A stretch of DNA of 64,000 nucleotides from positions 167,875 through 231,874 of the forward strand of contig NZ_SJPV01000011.1 in assembly GCF_007860135.1 (NCBI RefSeq), read 5' to 3'. Of this stretch, positions 31,321 through 41,724 are shown in pieces. The position numbers were made by a program, and so were the translations under genes. This stretch comes from Novipirellula artificiosorum (GTDB taxonomy: Bacteria > Planctomycetota > Planctomycetia > Pirellulales > Pirellulaceae). The notes beneath the pieces are model-generated. The model ran no database searches, had not been told where the DNA came from, and saw only the letters and a program-made list of their open reading frames with translations. The first letter of the stretch is position 1. The number at the start of each line of letters is the position of its first letter.

Positions 31321-33612
31321 TTATTGCTTCTGAAGTGCGTCCTTCTGCAATTTATCCATCAGCAGTTCGTAGGCCGTTTGGAATACTTCGGTGCTGGGTT
31401 CGAGCTCGCTGGCAGTTTTGAGTCTTTCGAGTGCCGCGTCGAACTCGCCGCTTAAGTAAAGGGCCAAACCGTAGCGATACTGGACGAACGCATTTTCGGG
31501 GGCCAATTTGGCATCGCGAGCCAGAAGCGGCAACTCTTGCTTTCGCAGTTGTTCGGCTCGCAACATCATTTCCATCGCCTGTTGGCCTTGGGTTTGAGCC
31601 GCCATGCCCTCCAACAACGCCGCCAGGTTGGTTCGGGGGCCGGTACTTTTGGGTTCCACTCGAATGGCGGTTTCGTAGGCCTCGATGGCTTCGCGGTAGC
31701 GGCCTTGCTGTTCGAGCAAAATCGCCCAGCCCATGTGGGCACCGCCACGATCCGCTGCAACCATCAACGTATCGTGGACTTCTTGGGTCGCCATTTCAAT
31801 CTGAGTTCGTTTCGAACCTGCCAATTGCTGATACGCCCCGGACGAGACCAGCACGCGGACCGCTTCGGTGCGAAGCAGTCGGTTGGGATGTTCTGCAAAA
31901 GGCACCAAATCGGCAATGGCTTGTTTCGGCGTGGCATTCATGTAGACACCGATGGCGGCAGCCCGAACCAGCGGATGCTCCGATTCGTTCTCCAAGAGCT
32001 CTTTCGCCTTGGGCAAGGCTTCGCGGATCCCCGCTTGGCCGAGTTCCGCGAGCGCCGTTGCACGGGCAATCTCCGGCGCGTTTTCGTTCGGCTGAGTGAC
32101 CAAACGCAACATCTTGCTGACCCCCTTCGCATCCCCACTGCGAAAGGCTGCCAAGGTTTCTGCAAAGTGTGGAGGTGTCAAACGTTCCTCGCCGTACCAT
32201 TCTTCGCAGGCCTCGTCGCACCACCGGTCGGTTTCGGCAATCACATCCGCAACCGGTTGATTGCCCTGCTCGGCCATCAACAGCCAATTTGCATATTCGT
32301 GCAACTGGTCCTGAGTTTCTTGCGGGAGTTTTTCCTTGCGGTCTTCCACATGACAACCGCTGCACGAATTGGGGGTCCCAGTTTTTACGGACAAATCAGG
32401 CCGCGGTACCCGCATGCTGTGGTCACGCCGTGGATCGATCGCCATGTAGGATGTTTCCGGCATATGACAATCGACACACATGGCACCCGGCGTACCGGGA
32501 TCGTGATGATGATGCGATGGGACGTCATACTTGCCTGCGGCATGTTGATGACACGAGGTGCAGGTTTCGTTATCAGGATGCTTCAGCTTGAGCGAGTGCG
32601 GGTCGTGACAATCGGTGCAGCGAACCCCTTGGTGAAACATCTTGCTTTGGATGAACGATCCATACACATAGACCTCATCTTTGATTTGGCCGTCGTCGTA
32701 ATAGGTTGACGGTTGCAGTAGTTCCAAGTTGTAGAAGTCGTGGTACTTGTCGCCTGGTCGAAAGCTTTCGTTGAGTACACCGCGACGGCTGTGGCATGGC
32801 GCACAGGTTTCGATTTGTGGATGGCTGTCTTCGCCCTTCAACGTTGCGAGTCCGTAGCCATAGTTTCGGTCCCAAAAGATCGACTTGTTGTTGGCTAATT
32901 CAACATGCAAACTGCCAGGACCATGGCAGGCTTCACAACTGACGTCAATTTCAGAATAGGTCGTGTGGTAGCGAGCGGTTTTGGGGTCAAACTTTTCTTG
33001 CAGGTTGGTGGAGTGGCATTCCGCGCACATGGTTTGCCAGCGTTGGGCGACACCGGTCCAATGCAGCGGATCATCCGGTTCCAACTTCTCAGGGACGTCT
33101 GGCGGACGGAGGTAAAACCATTCTTTTTTGACGGTATCCCAGGTGATTCGTAGTACCTGAACTCGAGCGACTTCATCCGCAGGCTGGTCTTCGGCCCGAT
33201 CAAATTCAACCATGTAGTTTTGCAGTGGCCGAATGCCGAACACATACTTGACTTCAAAGTCCTGCATTTGCCCGTCCTCGCCTTCGGTATGAACCATGAA
33301 CCGCTCGCCATCCCGATATAGCCGATTCACCAGTCCGTCGTGTTCAAAGGTCGCATCGTTGAAATCGCCCAAGACCGTTTCTTCGGTCGCAAGGTCCATC
33401 GCCATGTCATGGTCCGAGCCGATAAAAAGCTCGGATTCTTGCTGGTGACAATCGATACAGGCGGCGCGACCGACGAACGTGGGGTCGATTCCGAGTGGTT
33501 TTGCTGACCAGTAGTCCGCGAAAACCGCTCCGCCAACAAGCAGAACAAGAACGCTAAGGATCAGCCGAACGACAGGCCGTTTTTTTGCAGCAGTGGGGGT
33601 GGATTTGGACAA
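31321..33612 (-). CDS. Octaheme cytochrome c with TPR domain
   Basis: A 763-residue exported protein. After a basic start and a membrane helix (about residues 14-33) there are eight CxxCH heme sites, with first cysteines at 52, 196, 226, 270, 332, 351, 379 and 417. HxxH-rich stretches nearby can supply distal ligands. Residues about 500-590 read as HEAT-like repeats and 600-760 as tetratricopeptide repeats (for example AILLEQQGRYREAIEAYETA). Such cytochrome-TPR fusions are common in planctomycetes and their partners are mostly unknown. It may carry electrons outside the inner membrane and bind another protein by its repeats. Confidence 0.9.
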   Translation of the reverse strand: MSKSTPTAAKKRPVVRLILSVLVLLVGGAVFADYWSAKPLGIDPTFVGRAACIDCHQQESELFIGSDHDMAMDLATEETVLGDFNDATFEHDGLVNRLYRDGERFMVHTEGEDGQMQDFEVKYVFGIRPLQNYMVEFDRAEDQPADEVARVQVLRITWDTVKKEWFYLRPPDVPEKLEPDDPLHWTGVAQRWQTMCAECHSTNLQEKFDPKTARYHTTYSEIDVSCEACHGPGSLHVELANNKSIFWDRNYGYGLATLKGEDSHPQIETCAPCHSRRGVLNESFRPGDKYHDFYNLELLQPSTYYDDGQIKDEVYVYGSFIQSKMFHQGVRCTDCHDPHSLKLKHPDNETCTSCHQHAAGKYDVPSHHHHDPGTPGAMCVDCHMPETSYMAIDPRRDHSMRVPRPDLSVKTGTPNSCSGCHVEDRKEKLPQETQDQLHEYANWLLMAEQGNQPVADVIAETDRWCDEACEEWYGEERLTPPHFAETLAAFRSGDAKGVSKMLRLVTQPNENAPEIARATALAELGQAGIREALPKAKELLENESEHPLVRAAAIGVYMNATPKQAIADLVPFAEHPNRLLRTEAVRVLVSSGAYQQLAGSKRTQIEMATQEVHDTLMVAADRGGAHMGWAILLEQQGRYREAIEAYETAIRVEPKSTGPRTNLAALLEGMAAQTQGQQAMEMMLRAEQLRKQELPLLARDAKLAPENAFVQYRYGLALYLSGEFDAALERLKTASELEPSTEVFQTAYELLMDKLQKDALQKQ

Positions 33613-33941: not shown

Positions 33942-34484
33942 CTATTCCAAAATCCTGACCGCTTCTTGCCTCATTTCCTTAACCAGCCCGACCGTTGATT
34001 CGTTGTCCGAGTCCAATTTTTCGAGCAAGCGTGCAGCCTTCAGCAAGCATTCGGCCGCTCGCGCGCGTCGCGTGACCGATTCCTGAGAGCCTTGTTTGAC
34101 AACGGGATTGCCATAAATATCCAGATTCGGATCCAATGACGATCCGTCCAAAACGCTGTCCTGAGCGACGAAGGCTTCAGCAAAACTCTTGGCGATCGGG
34201 TCTTCCGTTTTGTCTGCGGCTCCGTGTAACTCTGGCATCACGGGCAAATCTGGCATCACGGGCAAATCTGGCATCACAGGCTCAAGAGGTCCCGGAATGG
34301 TGGCTGCTGCGGGTGCCGGATTCATGGTGGGTGCCGGATTCATGGTGGGTGCCGGATTCATGGTGGGTGCCGGATTCATGGTGGGTGCCGGATTCATGGT
34401 GGGTGGTTGTGCGACCACGATCGAAATGGCGGTGACCAAGCCGAGTGTGACCCCAAACGGGAAGAATCGTTTCGAAGCAATCAT
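33942..34484 (-). CDS. Secreted hexapeptide-repeat protein
   Basis: A 180-residue product with a signal-peptide-like start (MIASKRFFPFGVTLGLVTAI) followed by five copies of the hexapeptide PTMNPA and three of MPDLPV-type repeats. The last 100 residues are predicted helical and contain a likely coiled coil (AAECLLKAARLLEKLDSDN). No known family. It is the last gene in line behind the GTPase/ExbB-like genes, 119 bp downstream on the same strand, so it may or may not be part of that operon. Confidence 0.75.
   Translation of the reverse strand: MIASKRFFPFGVTLGLVTAISIVVAQPPTMNPAPTMNPAPTMNPAPTMNPAPTMNPAPAAATIPGPLEPVMPDLPVMPDLPVMPELHGAADKTEDPIAKSFAEAFVAQDSVLDGSSLDPNLDIYGNPVVKQGSQESVTRRARAAECLLKAARLLEKLDSDNESTVGLVKEMRQEAVRILE
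34231..34284 (+). repeat. 18-bp tandem repeat, three units
   Basis: Three units of TCTGGCATCACGGGCAAA (third unit diverged) lie in frame within the secreted repeat-protein gene and encode six-residue repeats. A variable number of units between strains would be expected. Confidence 0.85.
34312..34401 (+). repeat. 18-bp tandem repeat, five units
   Basis: Five identical units of GGTGCCGGATTCATGGTG, in frame with the secreted repeat-protein gene, encode PTMNPA hexapeptides on the minus strand. Units begin at 34312, 34330, 34348, 34366 and 34384. The identity of the units shows recent expansion or active homogenisation. Confidence 0.9.
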
Positions 34485-34603: not shown

Positions 34604-35407
34604 TTAGCGTCCCGTCTCAGGAGGGGCGGGGGGTTTGCCGCCTGGTGGCCTGGGCCCAGGCTTCGGCGCCGGTTGCCTCGTTCGTGCCGTGGGGCGTCGC
34701 TTAATGGGGGCCAATGCATGTTGTGCCTGATAGGCGACCTGGGCGATCAGCGAATCGACGCGATTTCGACAAATCGCATAGGCAGCGAGCGCTGGAATGG
34801 CAACGACCAAACCACCAACGGTGGTGACGAGTGCTTGATAAATTCCCTCGGCCAGATCTCCTGCTCCGGCGGCGCCGCGAGTGGTTGCGACTTGCTGGAA
34901 GGCAAAGATCATCCCTGTGACGGTGCCAAGCAACCCCACCATTGGGGCGATATTGCCGATCACCGACAAGTATTCGATTCGCCGCATCAAACGCGCGGCT
35001 TGTTCGGCGAGCGAATCCTCGACCGCCTTTTCAACTTCGCGCCATCCAAACTCCAGTTCGGTCAGCCCCGACAAGAGTACCACGCTCAATACACTCGGCT
35101 GACGCCGACACGCAGCATCGGCCTCGGCAGGTCGGCCGTTGAGCAACGATTGCCGAACGGCGTCACTGACCCCTTCGGGAAGAATTTCCGTTCGACGAAG
35201 CGTCATCAGTTGATCAAACACCAAGTAGGCCGCTGCGACGCTGAGTGCAACGAGGACAAGCAGGATCATCAACCCCACGACACCACCGCTAAAAACAATC
35301 TCGAACAGCCCGGCTTGCTCGGGTGGCGACGGTTGTGATTCGTTGGGGTTTGTTTGGGCCAGCACTGCGACCATGCGGATCGAGTGAAGCGTGACATCCA
35401 TGTTCAT
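34604..35407 (-). CDS. MotA/TolQ/ExbB-type channel protein
   Basis: The 267-residue protein has an N-terminal membrane segment (about 38-64), a cytoplasmic stretch, and the MotA/TolQ/ExbB domain at about 140-215 with two further helices (LSVIGNIAPMVGLLGTVTGM and ALVTTVGGLVVAIPALAAYA). The TVT and TTVGG threonines that line the ion path in this family are present. A Pro-rich basic tail ends the protein. Such channels normally work with an ExbD/TolR/MotB partner, but no such gene is here. Its start codon overlaps the stop of the preceding GTPase gene (ATGA), suggesting translational coupling. Confidence 0.88.
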   Translation of the reverse strand: MNMDVTLHSIRMVAVLAQTNPNESQPSPPEQAGLFEIVFSGGVVGLMILLVLVALSVAAAYLVFDQLMTLRRTEILPEGVSDAVRQSLLNGRPAEADAACRRQPSVLSVVLLSGLTELEFGWREVEKAVEDSLAEQAARLMRRIEYLSVIGNIAPMVGLLGTVTGMIFAFQQVATTRGAAGAGDLAEGIYQALVTTVGGLVVAIPALAAYAICRNRVDSLIAQVAYQAQHALAPIKRRPTARTRQPAPKPGPRPPGGKPPAPPETGR

Positions 35408-37290
35408 TCCTTCTCCGATTTTTCGGCGGCGCCGACCGACAGCAAAAATTCGGCATCGGCCAAGAGGGGATCCTCCCAGCGTAAACGCAACACCCCCTGT
35501 TTTTGAAGATGGCTAATGGCGAAATCGTGTTTTCCGCGAATTCCTTCCTCTGCCCTTTGAACTCGCCGGCGGCCTTGAGAGTAGGACAGGACCAGCATCG
35601 AGAAAATTGCGGTGGGAAGCAAGGACAAGAGCAGACTGGTCAACATCATCGCCAAGTCAGGGCGTGGGAAGCTCTCGAGATCCCCCTGCAAATTCCGCAG
35701 CGTCATGAAGCTGGCGTCGAAGTAGCCTCGGTAAAGCGCGACCACGGGGCCTGCCATCAACCCCCAGAACACCATGGTACCGATCAAGGCGAACAGGAAA
35801 GCGGTGAACCGCGAAATCGACACGCGTTCGACCTCCTCGTCAAAAATCCGCTGCGACATCTCCTGCAGCGAATCGATCCCGCCTAAGTAGGCGACCTGAG
35901 TCCGCGAATCGTCGTCGAGCGTGGGTGTCGCGGACGCCGAAGGGGAGCCCTGTTTGCGTAAATCTGCCAACTCGCTACGAAAACGTGAAGCGAGCGGGCC
36001 GAGTCGATCCGAAACGGCTGCGGCGCTGCGTTGACGAAGGCCCTCGCGAATATCTTGTTCGGCACCTTGTTGAGCGGTCAAATTCTTGGTGCTGGTCCAG
36101 ACCGCGCCGATCAATGACGGCAGGGAACCCGACAGTGAGATCATCACTCGGTCCCATGCTCCATGAGTCAGATTCAATAACCCCAACTGGGATCGATAGG
36201 GAAACCAAATGGCGGACGTTTCCGCCAGCAGTGCAAGCCGCAGCCTCGCTCGTACCGCCGCGCGCAACGGGCCACCACCGCCGACGAGTGTCTCGGCGAC
36301 CTGCGTCGGGATTTCCCTCGCTTCACGGTTAATCCGTCGTACCGCCGAGGTTAACCCAGGCAACTGGTCACTCATCACGCCATGGAGTGCGTTTCGGAAG
36401 CGAGCGTCGAGTGCTGACAAACGAGCGCTGCGGCGCCGGTCGCCTTCCCATAATTGACCGAGTTCCGTTTCCAATCGTGATCCGATCTCTTCCGCAGCCG
36501 CGGCTGCAACCTTGGATTCGCTGCGCCCTTCGATTTCAAAGTCTTCGATCACGATCGGTCGGGCGATCATGCTGGTGGGCGCCAATTCTCGCATCCGTCG
36601 CGAAAAAGCTTCCATGTCGGCGTCAAGCAAATCGTCGTGGTCTCGAACGGCGTTGACGAGCGGGATGACCACGCTGCCCTCACTTGCTTCGGCCAACATG
36701 CCAACCGATTGGCTGCGAAGTTGATCACGGCGCACGACCAGCAGGATGGCGGACGCGAGCGATATCGCTCGAGCCGCAACGGCCGCGATCTTTTGACGAT
36801 CGTCGGTCGCTCCCGGCGCATCGACCATCATGTAGGGCATCCCGATCGGTTGCATGTGCTTCGCGTCGCAATGCAAGTACAGTTCGAATCGCGAATCCAA
36901 ATCGGCGGGTGGACTCGGGCCGATCCAGACCAATTTCTCGGTGGCTTCGTCCACGTTGTTACCGCTGCGAATCGATGCTGCGACAGGCGATTGGCGTACC
37001 ATTTGACGCACCAACCACGACTTGCCTTGTCCGGTCGCACCGACAATCGCCACCACGGTTGCACCCCGGTTGCGATCCTCCAAGATCATGCGTCTCGCTT
37101 CGGCGTGTTCATCGCAAAGCTCGAGTACCTCACGCCCCGCCGGGCTGTCGGCCAGCACATGGCTTGCACTCTGTCGAACGCGGCGCAGGAAATGATCCCC
37201 CGGTTGATGGGTCCATCGGTCTTCTCCGGTTGAGTCGATGGAATCCAGAGGGACATGATTGGATTTAGGTTGCACGAGCAGAACCTTCAC
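35404..37290 (-). CDS. Membrane-anchored P-loop GTPase-like protein B
   Basis: A 628-residue protein with a Walker A motif GATGQGKS (84-91) and a DAPG motif at 157-160, which is the G3 form of dynamin-like and TrmE-Era GTPases. I find no clear NKxD; LVNAVRDHDD at about 212-221 may stand in for it. The middle part is long and helical. Two membrane helices lie near the C-terminus (about 497-520 and 548-571). The start is a GTG overlapping the previous gene by 26 nt; a GTG five codons later, 8 nt after GAAGG, is equally good. It is paired with GTPase A and coupled to the ExbB-like gene. Resemblance to bacterial dynamin-like proteins is inference. Confidence 0.82.
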   Translation of the reverse strand: MKVLLVQPKSNHVPLDSIDSTGEDRWTHQPGDHFLRRVRQSASHVLADSPAGREVLELCDEHAEARRMILEDRNRGATVVAIVGATGQGKSWLVRQMVRQSPVAASIRSGNNVDEATEKLVWIGPSPPADLDSRFELYLHCDAKHMQPIGMPYMMVDAPGATDDRQKIAAVAARAISLASAILLVVRRDQLRSQSVGMLAEASEGSVVIPLVNAVRDHDDLLDADMEAFSRRMRELAPTSMIARPIVIEDFEIEGRSESKVAAAAAEEIGSRLETELGQLWEGDRRRSARLSALDARFRNALHGVMSDQLPGLTSAVRRINREAREIPTQVAETLVGGGGPLRAAVRARLRLALLAETSAIWFPYRSQLGLLNLTHGAWDRVMISLSGSLPSLIGAVWTSTKNLTAQQGAEQDIREGLRQRSAAAVSDRLGPLASRFRSELADLRKQGSPSASATPTLDDDSRTQVAYLGGIDSLQEMSQRIFDEEVERVSISRFTAFLFALIGTMVFWGLMAGPVVALYRGYFDASFMTLRNLQGDLESFPRPDLAMMLTSLLLSLLPTAIFSMLVLSYSQGRRRVQRAEEGIRGKHDFAISHLQKQGVLRLRWEDPLLADAEFLLSVGAAEKSEKE

Positions 37291-39385
37291 TACGAGGCAG
37301 ACGCTGCTTCAATTCTTCTCGAAACTCGTCTCGTATACGATACACTGCCAAGGTTGGCCCGACCGCCTCTCGACGAACAATCTGAGAAAGCGGCAGGGTC
37401 ACGTTCGACTGGCTGACTTTGATGGTGACGGGTTCTTCCAGTCGGTTGACACCCAGCGAATCACTCAGTGCTGCATGAAAGTCGGCCAATTGTTGCTTGG
37501 CCGCTTGTTGGCCCACGTTTCGGGTGTTCGCACCACCGGCCCAGAGTGCGGATAACGTGGTCAAGCCGAGGGCGGCAAACAGTTCGGGAATCGATGCGGA
37601 TGCAAGCACCATGGTTCCACCAAAGTCGATCGGTATCATCAACACACCGCCAAATGCTGCCAACATGGCCGCCAGCGGCGTCAATCCCGCAGCCAATTTC
37701 TTGTGCATGGGAACCTCGGCCCACATCTGGCGAACGGCTTCATCGAGCCTTCGTGGGTCGAGGCTGGTGAAGTCGTCTCGTCCAAACCGCGAGATCGCTG
37801 CTTCGGATGCTTCCGTCAACCGTTTGATATCCGGATCGACTTCGTCGCCAAACCAATGGGGTAACGAACTGGTGCCACCGAACCGATCGATCGCGACGTT
37901 CAAACGTTCCGGTGTCATCAATCCACCGTACTCGCCACGACGGAATTTATCCTTGATCTCCGTTGCCGTTCGTTGTGCGAGCGCCGACGGAGTCAGTTGG
38001 CGAATGAAATCTCCTGCACCGCCAAGTATCCGCCGCATCCTCGCATTCATCCGTACTCCCCAACGAGCGTACCAGGGCGCCGTGATTGCAAACGACTCGG
38101 AAAGCTGGCGGACGATGCGTTCGGATTGGTGCAATCTTAACTCGATCACTTCGCCACCGACCTGGCGATGCGCAAAGAATTCGAGCGCTGCCTGCATCAA
38201 GCAATGTTGAGCCTTCGTCGTCGCCGCGATCGACTTGTCCGCATCTTGATCGATCAGGGTCAGCCCACGGTTCCAAATCACCGCGCGCAGACTCGATTGC
38301 AAGGCAATTCGGAATTTCTCAAACAGTTGTGCTCGATCTAGCCGACTCGGTAGCGCTTGTAGCAAGCGTTCCTTGGGAATGGCCGCTGGCGGATTGTTGT
38401 CGGGATTCGATGTCACGGAAAAGAACACCGGTAACAGTTCCGCATCTGGGTCGATTGCGACTGATGGGGTGGATTCATCGACGGTCGGAATAAACGGACG
38501 GCTTGCGGGGACGTCAAAGTCGTAGGCTGCATAGATCGTTTCAATGCCGTACGTTTTGCTTAGCGACGAGAACGTTTCGTACACTTGATCCGGTGTTTGC
38601 CGAGGGCGAACCTTGTTGACCGCTAACATCCTCGGGACTCCCGGCATCAGATCCGATGCAATTCGCAGTAAATCACCAAGGGTTGCATCGCGAGACGATT
38701 CAGCGGATGTGACGATCAAAAAAGCGGAACAGAGCGCCGCGGCTCGTCCCAACAACTCACGTCGGATCTCAGGGGATCCCAGACCGAACGCTTCGTCCGA
38801 AACGATGTCAGGGCAATCCAACAACCCAACTCCCGCTTCGTCCAAACCCGAATCGGTAGCGATCAGAGGGACGCCGAGTGAATCCGCATTGCCACCTTGA
38901 TTGTTGTATTGGCGATGAGCGTCACGCGGGTCCTCCGCCAACATCTCGGGGGGATTGCCGATAGCGTCGCCAATGCGGCTGAGCAGCAGTCCCCAAAGCT
39001 CGGCGTCCTGTTGCCATTGTTTGGGGAGCCATAACACGAAGCGATGTGTGCCTTGATCATTACTAGGCCCGCGAAGTGTTCGCGTTCGTCCGGCTTCGCT
39101 CAGGTAGGTCGCCACCAAGCTCGTTTTGCCACTATTGAGCATTCCTGCAACCGCGACGACAGGCCAATTGACCAATTGTGATGCGGAATGCACTTGTCGG
39201 CCGCAGGCAAGGATGTCGTGGACCACCGAGGCGTCGACCCGCCGAACCGATGCCAAGTAGCTCTCGCGCGACTCGGCGGGGAAGCTGCACTGTGCCGCGG
39301 CCCGTCGGTCGTCGTCTTCAAGTAACGACAGCAAGCCCGGCCAGTCGATCGGCTGTTCTTCGATTTTGCGTCGTTTACCAAACAT
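37265..39385 (-). CDS. Membrane-anchored P-loop GTPase-like protein A
   Basis: A 706-residue protein. The G1 loop is GMLNSGKTS at 81-89, G3 is DCPDI at 190-194 and a G4-like NKVR occurs at 257-260, where the usual Asp is Arg. These fit a dynamin-like or septin-type GTPase, but the nucleotide pocket seems modified. A long helical middle part follows, then a hydrophobic pair of segments (about 567-618) and a C-terminal extension of about 90 residues. It lies 42 bp behind the Ser/Thr kinase and ends inside the start of GTPase B. The family is not one I can name. Confidence 0.82.
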   Translation of the reverse strand: MFGKRRKIEEQPIDWPGLLSLLEDDDRRAAAQCSFPAESRESYLASVRRVDASVVHDILACGRQVHSASQLVNWPVVAVAGMLNSGKTSLVATYLSEAGRTRTLRGPSNDQGTHRFVLWLPKQWQQDAELWGLLLSRIGDAIGNPPEMLAEDPRDAHRQYNNQGGNADSLGVPLIATDSGLDEAGVGLLDCPDIVSDEAFGLGSPEIRRELLGRAAALCSAFLIVTSAESSRDATLGDLLRIASDLMPGVPRMLAVNKVRPRQTPDQVYETFSSLSKTYGIETIYAAYDFDVPASRPFIPTVDESTPSVAIDPDAELLPVFFSVTSNPDNNPPAAIPKERLLQALPSRLDRAQLFEKFRIALQSSLRAVIWNRGLTLIDQDADKSIAATTKAQHCLMQAALEFFAHRQVGGEVIELRLHQSERIVRQLSESFAITAPWYARWGVRMNARMRRILGGAGDFIRQLTPSALAQRTATEIKDKFRRGEYGGLMTPERLNVAIDRFGGTSSLPHWFGDEVDPDIKRLTEASEAAISRFGRDDFTSLDPRRLDEAVRQMWAEVPMHKKLAAGLTPLAAMLAAFGGVLMIPIDFGGTMVLASASIPELFAALGLTTLSALWAGGANTRNVGQQAAKQQLADFHAALSDSLGVNRLEEPVTIKVSQSNVTLPLSQIVRREAVGPTLAVYRIRDEFREELKQRLPRSEGSARAT

Positions 39386-39427
39386 GAAAAGTACTAAGAA
39401 CGTGTCTTGAAAAGCGGCACGACCTCC

Positions 39428-41545
39428 CTACGAAGGGAGAACCGGTTCGATAGGCTTGGTGAGGGTCGGTCCGTCAAAAACATTTTGCCACCAACGCATC
39501 GCGTCCGCATTGGACCAATGGTCGTGGTCTCGACAATGTCGAAGTGTATCAGCGAGGTCGGCCATCGACATAGGGCGCTCCGCCGCATCTTTTCGCAAGC
39601 AGCTCATCAGCACGTTCTGTAGATCCTCTGGCAAGTCCGCTCCTGTTCGCTCGGACGGCCGCAGGGGGGCCTCGTTGAGCTGTTTCAGACAAATGTCGAC
39701 CGACGGTCCGCTGTCGTACATGGGGAGCCCCGTCAGTAGTGCGTAGCCAACCGCGCCGACCGAATACAGATCACTGCGTGCATCGGCCGAGGATGCATCG
39801 CGAACCGACTCGGGCGACATGTACATCGGCGTGCCGGTGATTGAATCCGTTTGCGTCAATTCCGTCGTTTCACGTGAGATCTCTTTAACCAGTCCAAAAT
39901 CGAGTACCTTCACCATGTCGTAGATCCCCGCCTGGGCCGTCAGGAAGACATTCGATGGTTTGATATCGCGATGGACGATCCCGTGATGATGGGCCTCGGA
40001 CAACGAGCCGCAAATCTGCAACAGGATTGCAATCACCCGATCTGCCGGTTGCCGACCATAATCATCGATCAGTTCTTGCAGCGTGATGCCGTGCAAAAAC
40101 TCCATCACATAGTAAAACGTTCCTTCATCGCTGCGGCCGTAGTCGTAGATCGCGATCGTGTTGGGATGTCGCAATTGGGCGGTTAATTGGACTTCGCGGG
40201 CGAACCGCGATGCGGTGGTCGATGTCCATTTGTCCCCTTCGAGTACTTTGATCGCGACCTGGCGACGAAGCAATTCATGCGAGCCTGAATAAACGGTTCC
40301 CATCGCTCCATGACCAATCCGTTGATTCAGTTGGTACCTGCCGAGTTGGCGGCTTTCAAGCTTTGGTCCCAACCGCTTTGTCAACCAGGGAGTCAGCATC
40401 ACCGAGCCGATCAGCCCGGCGGTGGTCGCAACCCACAACCCGATGGCCACCCATAGGGTCCAACGCAACCAACGCAGCGGCGCATAGACGTCGGCAACCT
40501 CCATTTCCGTTGCCACACCGAGTGCTTGCTCGGGTAACCATCGCCAAGCGCCGATCACTTGGATGCCGCGAAAGTCACGGTATCCCGACACATTTTCGCC
40601 CGTTGCCCCCCGTGTCGCTTGGTCCGCCATCTCGGTCAGAGGCCAATCGGAAACCTTGTCCGTGATTCGCCCACCGCGTGTCAAATCCGCACCGGGGTCT
40701 CGTAGTTGAACACTCAGAATGCTGGTCGACGACGGTTCCTCGCCAATCAGTCCGATGCGTCGGAGCTCTGGTTGGTGTCGAGAGGGGCTAAGCATCACAG
40801 CTTGCCGGTCAAATGCATAAGTGGAGCAAGCCGTGTCCTCATTCACCGTAGGCATGACTTGGCGGAACTCGTCGTGAGGGTCTACCAGCCATGCTAAACT
40901 GCCCAGGACCCGAGCTTCCTCGGTGATCGGAACCAGAACCGCGATCACGGGAGCCTTTGCTTGAGAGAGCCGACCCGAACGCGTTAAGGCGACGGGGCAA
41001 CGAAATGGCCGCGTTACAGAGGGCTTTCGCTGTATGATCTTCTCAAATGCATCGGTTGGCAACGGAAGATTGACGGAATCGAGTGAACCAAGATCACTGT
41101 GGAGCACGCGTCCATCGATATTGAGCAGCGCCCAGCAGACGCATTGATCGTCGATCGGGTGCATCGCCATCGATGCCACCAGGGACTCCACGTCCGTCGC
41201 TTCCTCCTCAGCGACCGGTGATGACACTTGCGGCTGCTGACGATTGAGAATCGCAACCGCTGTCCGTTGAACGTCCGGTTGCGTTGCAACGGCCAACGCC
41301 TCGACCAGGCGTTGATTTTGCCAATGTTGCATCGAATCAATACTCGACTGCAATCGGACGCGAAGCGATCGGCGTGTCATTTGTTGCATCGAGTGGCGAA
41401 CAGCGACATCGAGACAGCCAAGCAAGAGGGTCGCAATTCCAGAGAGCAGGATAAGAGAGATCAGCACGGACTGCCAAGAGCGACCGAACGCCCCATGAAT
41501 AGCAGTGCGGAATTGGGACAACGGGCGGTGGGACAAGGGAAGCAT
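39428..41545 (-). CDS. Membrane Ser/Thr protein kinase with sensor domain
   Basis: A 705-residue transmembrane kinase. It has a membrane helix near the N-terminus, an extracytoplasmic region of about 320 residues that looks like a dCACHE sensor, a second helix, and a C-terminal Hanks-type kinase domain. Catalytic motifs are GHGAMGTVYSG, VAIKVL, HRDIKPSN, DFGLVKE and GTPMYMSPE, so it should be active. I start at MLPLSHRPLSQF; an upstream ATG would add 22 residues. It leads a gene set that continues with two GTPases and an ExbB-like channel, which may be its targets. Confidence 0.9.
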   Translation of the reverse strand: MLPLSHRPLSQFRTAIHGAFGRSWQSVLISLILLSGIATLLLGCLDVAVRHSMQQMTRRSLRVRLQSSIDSMQHWQNQRLVEALAVATQPDVQRTAVAILNRQQPQVSSPVAEEEATDVESLVASMAMHPIDDQCVCWALLNIDGRVLHSDLGSLDSVNLPLPTDAFEKIIQRKPSVTRPFRCPVALTRSGRLSQAKAPVIAVLVPITEEARVLGSLAWLVDPHDEFRQVMPTVNEDTACSTYAFDRQAVMLSPSRHQPELRRIGLIGEEPSSTSILSVQLRDPGADLTRGGRITDKVSDWPLTEMADQATRGATGENVSGYRDFRGIQVIGAWRWLPEQALGVATEMEVADVYAPLRWLRWTLWVAIGLWVATTAGLIGSVMLTPWLTKRLGPKLESRQLGRYQLNQRIGHGAMGTVYSGSHELLRRQVAIKVLEGDKWTSTTASRFAREVQLTAQLRHPNTIAIYDYGRSDEGTFYYVMEFLHGITLQELIDDYGRQPADRVIAILLQICGSLSEAHHHGIVHRDIKPSNVFLTAQAGIYDMVKVLDFGLVKEISRETTELTQTDSITGTPMYMSPESVRDASSADARSDLYSVGAVGYALLTGLPMYDSGPSVDICLKQLNEAPLRPSERTGADLPEDLQNVLMSCLRKDAAERPMSMADLADTLRHCRDHDHWSNADAMRWWQNVFDGPTLTKPIEPVLPS

Positions 41546-41724
41546 TGTGAAATGGAGTGGTGAAGGAAGAACGACTACCTGAATTCTAGCATTTCGCAGT
41601 GGGGATCGCATCGCGGCTAAGTCACGGCCTCTGGGTAGGTGAGGTCAAGGCGAATTGGCGCAGAGACGTGGGATCGGTTACGCTTTTTTGAGCTGACCCG
41701 ATCGCAATACCGGAGAACCTCACT

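Follow-up and report, generated by a model that had tools for sequence, protein, structure and literature searches.

A predicted pair of dynamin-like proteins encoded beside an ExbB/TolQ-type stator gene in Pirellulaceae

The stretch of DNA studied here, hereafter the window, is a 64,000-nt segment of the 9.2 Mb genome of Novipirellula artificiosorum (GCF_007860135.1, NZ_SJPV01000011.1; G000:C11:167875-231874 in our numbering of genomes and contigs). Four closely packed genes on its minus strand (34604-41611) encode a membrane Ser/Thr kinase, two P-loop proteins, A and B, and an ExbB/TolQ-type stator subunit (Table 1), with a gap of 42 nt between the kinase and A, an overlap of 26 nt between A and B and an ATGA overlap of 4 nt between B and ExbB, the layout described in an original prediction made from the sequence of the window alone. 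Judged by structure models, A and B are best read as a heterotypic pair of bacterial dynamin-like proteins (DLPs). We favour, with roughly even confidence, the explanation that a proton-driven vWA envelope motor is co-expressed with this pair and plausibly coupled to it, the dynamin operon having captured the ExbB stator gene of that motor. The computation supports a dynamin-like fold and a split motor, as placed by models and profiles, together with the co-occurrence of A and B and a stable linkage of B to ExbB. Neither bacterial dynamins nor ExbB/TolQ motors are new in themselves. The original prediction had called the system unfamiliar from the literature and, indeed, no report joining dynamins with ExbB/TolQ as one system was found in the open-licence literature, nor, among the titles listed there, any study of planctomycete or Pirellulaceae dynamins in such a system. 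Two unannotated protein families are assigned to a predicted membrane-remodelling pair, and candidate partners of the channel are located.

Predicted dynamin-like fold and pairing of A and B

AlphaFold models were computed from alignments of 61 B and 51 A sequences. The former comprises the window protein and homologues from 60 of the 74 loci at which B was detected by a pattern scan of one genome per species in 84,980 species, and the latter the window protein with homologues from 50 of the 56 loci that have A; neither alignment includes fragments, broken copies or near-duplicates. The model of B (mean predicted local distance difference test score, pLDDT, of 84.5; predicted template-modelling score, pTM, of 0.70) gave 54 matches at E<=0.001 in a Foldseek search against the PDB, with BDLP (PDB identifier 2j69; E 3.7e-8) as the best. 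The best 50 of these 54 are all dynamin-superfamily, mitofusin, OPA1/Mgm1, IniA or EHD structures, ranked in the order BDLP, the Campylobacter DLP pair, SynDLP, OPA1 and MxA, and then mitofusins, dynamins, EHD and IniA. For A (mean pLDDT 84.3, pTM 0.75), all ten matches at the same threshold are IniA, EHD, the Campylobacter DLP pair or Fzo1. Using VIA-align, the first match to A is mitofusin-1, which could be aligned over model residues 8-701 with a Z of 17.0 and a root-mean-square deviation of 6.3 over 302 residues. Both predicted structures show a G domain of dynamin type that leads into a long helical stalk, and the case is stronger for A than for B. The dynamin-like traits ascribed to the two proteins by the original prediction are thus borne out by structure matches that place both with BDLP, the Campylobacter DLPs, IniA and mitofusins.

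The architecture predicted for A consists of a G domain (~72-350), a helical stalk, a transmembrane (TM) hairpin (~568-611) and a C-terminal helix. Its P-loop, GMLNSGKTS, is kept in 50 of the 51 alignment rows, the remaining row being a gap, and its G3 motif reads DCPD instead of the usual DxxG, with Gly replaced by Asp, in all 51. B carries the P-loop GATGQGKSW, a DxPG motif and a conserved FPYR..GAWDR stalk motif; the P-loop (as GxxGQGK) and DxPG are kept in all 61 rows of full-length homologues. A hydropathy scan predicts membrane segments inside the C-terminal helices of both proteins, coinciding with the hairpin in A and lying at ~495-513 and 550-568 in B. Together with the conserved P-loops, these segments agree with the earlier description of two P-loop proteins with C-terminal membrane helices. 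The scan also flagged residues 210-228 of A and 168-186 of B, both within the modelled G domains.

The pairing of A with B is genuine and of long standing. Within the 60 sampled genomes of the family, A and B occur in the same 17, and A lies directly upstream of B (<=300 nt) in 56 of 69 testable loci; gaps and overlaps in this count were reckoned from the first possible start codon, and the overlaps may therefore be overstated. The two are apart in four of the 17 genomes: in G013, G038 and G059 they are on separate contigs, and in G006 ~13 kb lies between them. A class-wide search outside the family found strong A in five genomes of four families (G413, G355, G353, G385 and G564), and B directly follows A in each of them; the G413 locus probably coincides with L141 of the 74 loci, and a misbinned contig is possible there. 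The expectation that such proteins would come as adjacent pairs thus holds both within and beyond the family. The phylum and class searches scored four or three candidates per genome, and absences there are accordingly weak. Five marginal A matches have E-values of 1e-4 to 1e-3 (G380, G578, G388, G425 and a second match in G023), and weak B matches in G019 (E 8e-5, 165 residues) and G225 (E 2.7e-5) were excluded from the B counts.

Several divergent arrangements were observed alongside. In G225, from another family of the order (L205:7728-11688), a very divergent B-like protein of 689 aa is encoded by a gene overlapping by 14 nt a 634-aa gene that had no profile match at an E limit of 1e-3; the two may represent the A-B pair in a remote form. 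G021 (L074:4306-15008) has two divergent copies of the pair ~6.9 kb apart with equal scores, the B proteins of which lack the P-loop, keep the FPYR..GAWDR stalk motif and fall outside the 61-row alignment, their sequences suggesting an active/inactive pair. In a Pirellula-like clade (L145:1514-10248), the dynamin pair is flanked by L27-Obg-CoaX on one side and by a divergent MnmE/TrmE-like GTPase on the other. In two metagenome-assembled genomes (L106:4145-5989 and L109:313-2218), B is in two or three pieces, through either assembly error or decay.

In being large DLPs of matching predicted fold with genes side by side, A and B resemble Cj-DLP1/Cj-DLP2 of Campylobacter jejuni, Nostoc BDLP and IniA. 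LeoA/B/C are further bacterial DLPs. Most bacterial DLPs are described as paired in operons, with pairing apparently fundamental (PMC6104087), and known members are described as tethering or cutting membranes in vitro (PMC6104087, PMC6715688). Unlike these proteins, A and B have predicted integral TM hairpins and share an operon with an ExbB stator gene, and their nucleotide-binding motifs depart from those of bacterial DLPs at G3 in A and at the G4 Asp in both. The best structural alignments of A liken it to mitofusin/Fzo1 over nearly the whole model, and both have the membrane region in the C-terminal half; unlike mitofusin/Fzo1, A and B are bacterial, share only ~10-14% identity with them, are two different subunits and have altered nucleotide motifs.

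Linkage of ExbB to B and the split vWA motor

The fourth protein of the cassette matches MotA_ExbB (PF01618, E 7.9e-28) and has three hydrophobic segments by hydropathy (near 46-64, 147-174 and 186-212) and a Pro-rich C-terminal tail. It is an orthologue of the stator gene in a widespread vWA-TPR-ExbB-ExbD-ExbD-TPR motor operon, and 57 of the 60 family genomes have a match to its profile scoring 303 bits or more, a number well above that of the dynamin carriers. In 20 ExbB regions, a subset of the 51 sampled genomes whose ExbB does not follow B, an ExbD of one type lies downstream in 16, the TPR protein c2 upstream in 17, a vWA gene is present in 10 and a second TPR gene downstream in 11; the vWA protein has an SxxxH motif in its TM segment that is invariant in 9/9 rows. 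This set resembles the PVC vWA force-transducer motors of TolQR type, described in PMC12204202 as comprising TPR, TolQ-like and two TolR-like genes and a TM-tethered SxxxH vWA protein. The window genome differs from that description in that its TolQ/ExbB gene stands outside the motor operon, behind the dynamin pair.

The vWA gene with its TonB-like TM motif, the TPR and TolQ genes and the two TolR genes, which are together in relatives, occupy three loci in the window genome, viz., ExbD1-ExbD2-TPR at G000:C22 (L176:7017-10557), vWA-TPR at G000:C1 (L189:6095-8235) and ExbB at the window locus, and no ExbB was found in the C22 and C1 regions. The original prediction had noted an ExbB-type channel with no ExbD; this stands for the window and fails for the genome, which has ExbD1-ExbD2 of the same operon type on C22 and a TonB-like vWA transducer on C1. 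The idea of a solitary channel was rejected on these grounds, and we infer that ExbB partners ExbD1/ExbD2 in the window genome. In the nine sampled genomes in which ExbB follows B (G000, G037, G055, G011, G046, G036, G013, G045 and G038), no ExbD profile match was found in the B-linked ExbB loci at an E limit of 1e-6; ExbD1-ExbD2 are paired elsewhere in seven of the nine, separated in G037 and represented only by ExbD1 in G038. Of the 74 B loci, three gave a match to a motor profile: L090 weakly to vWA (61 bits), and L122 and L116 to TPR c2. As regards other channel genes of the window genome, an ExbB-like match on C16 without an adjacent ExbD was set aside, being of flagellar MotA type by eye and followed by a MotB-like gene, and a further ExbB-like match of 528 aa was observed on C1 (805592).

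ExbB directly follows B in 30 of the 33 testable loci with at least 48% identity to the window B (L102, L107 and L140 being the exceptions, and L105, with an open frame starting far upstream, being included), so that the A-B and B-ExbB counts together uphold a conserved gene order, the absence of which had been named beforehand as a ground for doubt. B and ExbB overlap or lie <=10 nt apart in 21 of 29 measured cases. The outer flanks are variable, with the gene beyond ExbB and the gene before A coming from several unrelated families or lying on the opposite strand, and the B-ExbB core is thus steadier than its flanks. In a midpoint-rooted tree of 52 ExbB rows without an outgroup, the 31 directly linked proteins (counting that of the window) share a clade with the unlinked ExbB of G028, a pattern consistent with a single capture and a later loss, or else with two captures. 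In L122 (5201-11794), TPR c2 and an ExbB from the other clade of the tree lie ~2.8 kb upstream of B, with CNNM and 3-keto-disaccharide hydrolase genes in between, possibly a second, independent approach of motor genes to B. The four-gene cassette is also carried by the Rhodopirellula baltica BR-MGV genome (L092).

Proposed coupling and its alternatives

We hypothesize that a dynamin operon captured the ExbB/TolQ stator gene in the Rhodopirellula-Stieleria-Rubripirellula lineage, while the rest of the motor (two ExbDs, two TPR proteins and the TonB-like vWA transducer) would have remained at two other loci. A and B would assemble on the inner membrane via their G domains and stalks, anchored by the TM hairpins, and the assembly may bend, tether or repair that membrane. 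ExbB made from the same message would form pentamers with the distant ExbD pair and drive the vWA transducer acting on the outer envelope, and its co-production with the dynamins may match, localise or perhaps deliver motor units to sites of remodelling. The kinase, where linked, may tune the remodelling or the motor to a periplasmic signal. We infer, beyond the genes themselves, that A and B may hetero-oligomerise and use nucleotide, that they may be functionally or physically coupled to the motor, perhaps through contact with ExbB, and that the candidate cellular roles are envelope constriction, a bud neck or, under envelope stress, membrane repair. An ExbB/TolQ-type motor that works with a GTPase is known from the Agl-MglA gliding motor of Myxococcus, in which the GTPase, MglA, is small and Ras-like rather than a membrane protein of dynamin type. 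Cell division proceeds without FtsZ in planctomycetes, and the Pirellulales are also described as having lost peptidoglycan-synthesis genes (PMC12283558), and constriction or budding is therefore an attractive predicted role. A dynamin pair and a motor subunit in one operon suggest a testable remodelling-motor link in bacteria without FtsZ, and the conserved link offers concrete genes for study in cultured species such as Rhodopirellula baltica. In this species, salt is described as inducing exbD RB12055 and exbB RB12053, which may or may not be the ExbB gene of the cassette.

A simpler account, which we hold to be possible on a tentative footing, is that the dynamin pair and ExbB are merely co-transcribed after a single ancestral rearrangement that became frozen, with the ExbD pair and vWA protein encoded elsewhere as the sole partners of ExbB. 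Co-transcription alone would account for all observations, and several of these favour it or weigh against coupling. The directly B-linked ExbBs all belong to one clade. ExbB is next to B in none of the 32 testable loci with <=39% identity to the window B, and hence the dynamin pair can do without this link. In G028, within the linked clade, and in G006, dynamins are present and the B-ExbB neighbourhood is absent, their ExbB adjoining ExbD1. ExbD is also missing beside ExbB in four of the 20 regions in which no dynamin adjoins it (G019, G010, G059 and G012, of which G010 and G059 carry dynamins elsewhere in the genome), so that the motor operon fragments without ExbB moving to the dynamins. 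The loci also overlap between sets and include close relatives, and the counts are thus not independent. On the other hand, the outer flanks have been replaced many times with B-ExbB retained, and B-ExbB is kept where A is not beside B (L079, L080, L104, G013 and G038/L105). The strongest form of the coupling explanation appears unlikely, namely that the dynamins are physically coupled to the stator and shape or recruit motor units at constriction sites while the vWA arm pulls the outer envelope, as one part of a machine with which Pirellulaceae would constrict or bud independently of FtsZ.

It is improbable that A and B are other TRAFAC GTPases, related to Era or EngA, with added TM segments, although part of the evidence points that way or weakens the dynamin assignment. 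For the G domain of B alone, mitofusin, EF-Tu and Era are tied at Z 16.6-16.9, EngA also scoring level, so that dynamins are not singled out, and whole-model template-modelling scores are low (0.16-0.32). By our assignment of motif positions, the G4 Asp position holds Asp in four of 61 B rows and in none of 51 A rows; with this residue nearly gone from both families, GTP specificity is doubtful. B falls slightly under the Pfam MMR_HSR1 cut-off (21.5 vs 21.9 bits), a Pfam scan of A gave no match, Dynamin_N is weakly matched by 6/51 A and 15/61 B members at E<=0.1, hhalign relates A to B with a probability of 35% over the G domains only, and a sequence-profile search of the PDB found no dynamin for B and a best match of only E 0.071 for A. 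The Pfam and PDB profile searches being too weak to assign a fold, the dynamin claim rests on the structure models. One clade's pair, moreover, sits among Obg and MnmE-like genes. Against this, mitofusins rank above Era for A (Z ~15-17 over ~300 residues, helices included, vs 13.1), the top Foldseek matches are of the dynamin superfamily for both proteins, and side-by-side pairs are described as typical of bacterial DLPs (PMC6104087), all of which favour the DLP reading.

We think it very improbable that ExbB works here without ExbD, with dynamin TM segments replacing the ExbD/TolR transpore helix and the dynamins driving or gating the channel. Such a role would suit the lack of ExbD profile matches in the linked loci and the invariant D587, G589 and E601 of the A hairpin (51/51 rows), and ExbB-type motors without ExbD genes are proposed for TPH-vWA pairs in PMC12204202. 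However, the ExbD1-ExbD2 pair persists in most of the linked genomes, and D587 and E601 are just as invariant in rows whose A has no ExbB neighbour. The least probable alternative, with hardly any weight, is an anti-phage defence module of Zorya or dynamin type: ZorA of Zorya is a MotA/ExbB/TolQ-type protein in the PADLOC description, the kinase domain matches the PADLOC PD-T4-6 kinase models (E 4.1e-80) and the Bacillus dynamin DynA is described as limiting phage lysis (PMC8844932), but that match is restricted to the kinase domain, A has no PADLOC match, ExbB and B match at E 0.038 or worse, and a pair that is found across the class and follows L27-Obg-CoaX in one clade, 57/60 family genomes having an ExbB orthologue, is unlike a mobile island. 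ExbB was not recognised as ZorA (best PADLOC ZorA model at E 0.039; no search was made for ZorB or effector genes), and a defence island was rejected as the PADLOC search gave no specific match.

The kinase and the neighbouring genes

The original identification of a membrane Ser/Thr kinase is sustained by a Pkinase match (E 1.3e-47) at residues 426-682 with HRD and DFG motifs and by TM segments near 49-67 and 388-406, the region between which is predicted to be a sensor and is probably periplasmic. Its start had been placed at an internal ATG (residue 23); the open frame reaches further upstream, and the internal start is still possible (Table 1). The idea that the system is kinase-regulated fares poorly. 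The kinase adjoins A on its upstream side in 12 of 46 testable loci, a loose linkage that counts against the proposed system. Its sensor region has relatives in 28 of the 60 genomes, a larger number than that of the dynamin carriers, and the best match to this region in G037, a genome of the same genus, is ~70 kb from the dynamins. The kinase is thus an optional partner, and was rejected as a fixed part of the cassette.

Table 1. Genes of the cassette and its neighbours in the window, with the basis of each assignment
Feature	Coordinates	Strand	Basis or remark
Membrane Ser/Thr kinase	39428..41611	-	Pfam, hydropathy, motifs read from sequence; start may be 41545
Dynamin-like protein A (predicted), 706 aa	37265..39385	-	AlphaFold model, structure matches, alignment, hydropathy
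Dynamin-like protein B (predicted), 628 aa, GTG start	35404..37290	-	AlphaFold model, structure matches, alignment, hydropathy
ExbB/TolQ-type stator subunit, 267 aa	34604..35407	-	Pfam, hydropathy, orthology to family motor-operon ExbB
Small secreted-type protein, 18-bp tandem repeat (PTMNPA)	33942..34484	-	Loosely associated neighbour
Multihaem cytochrome c with HEAT/TPR repeats	31321..33612	-	Loosely associated neighbour

A scan for promoters and terminators gave a result at chance level. Beyond ExbB, the small secreted-type protein has a second short repeat, VMPDLP, beside its tandem repeat, and its homologues (cluster c14) come after ExbB in 6 of 30 loci. Homologues of the cytochrome are next in line in several relatives (L061, L066; cluster c15), and their position beyond ExbB and the small gene, as in L061, hints at a longer conserved neighbourhood.

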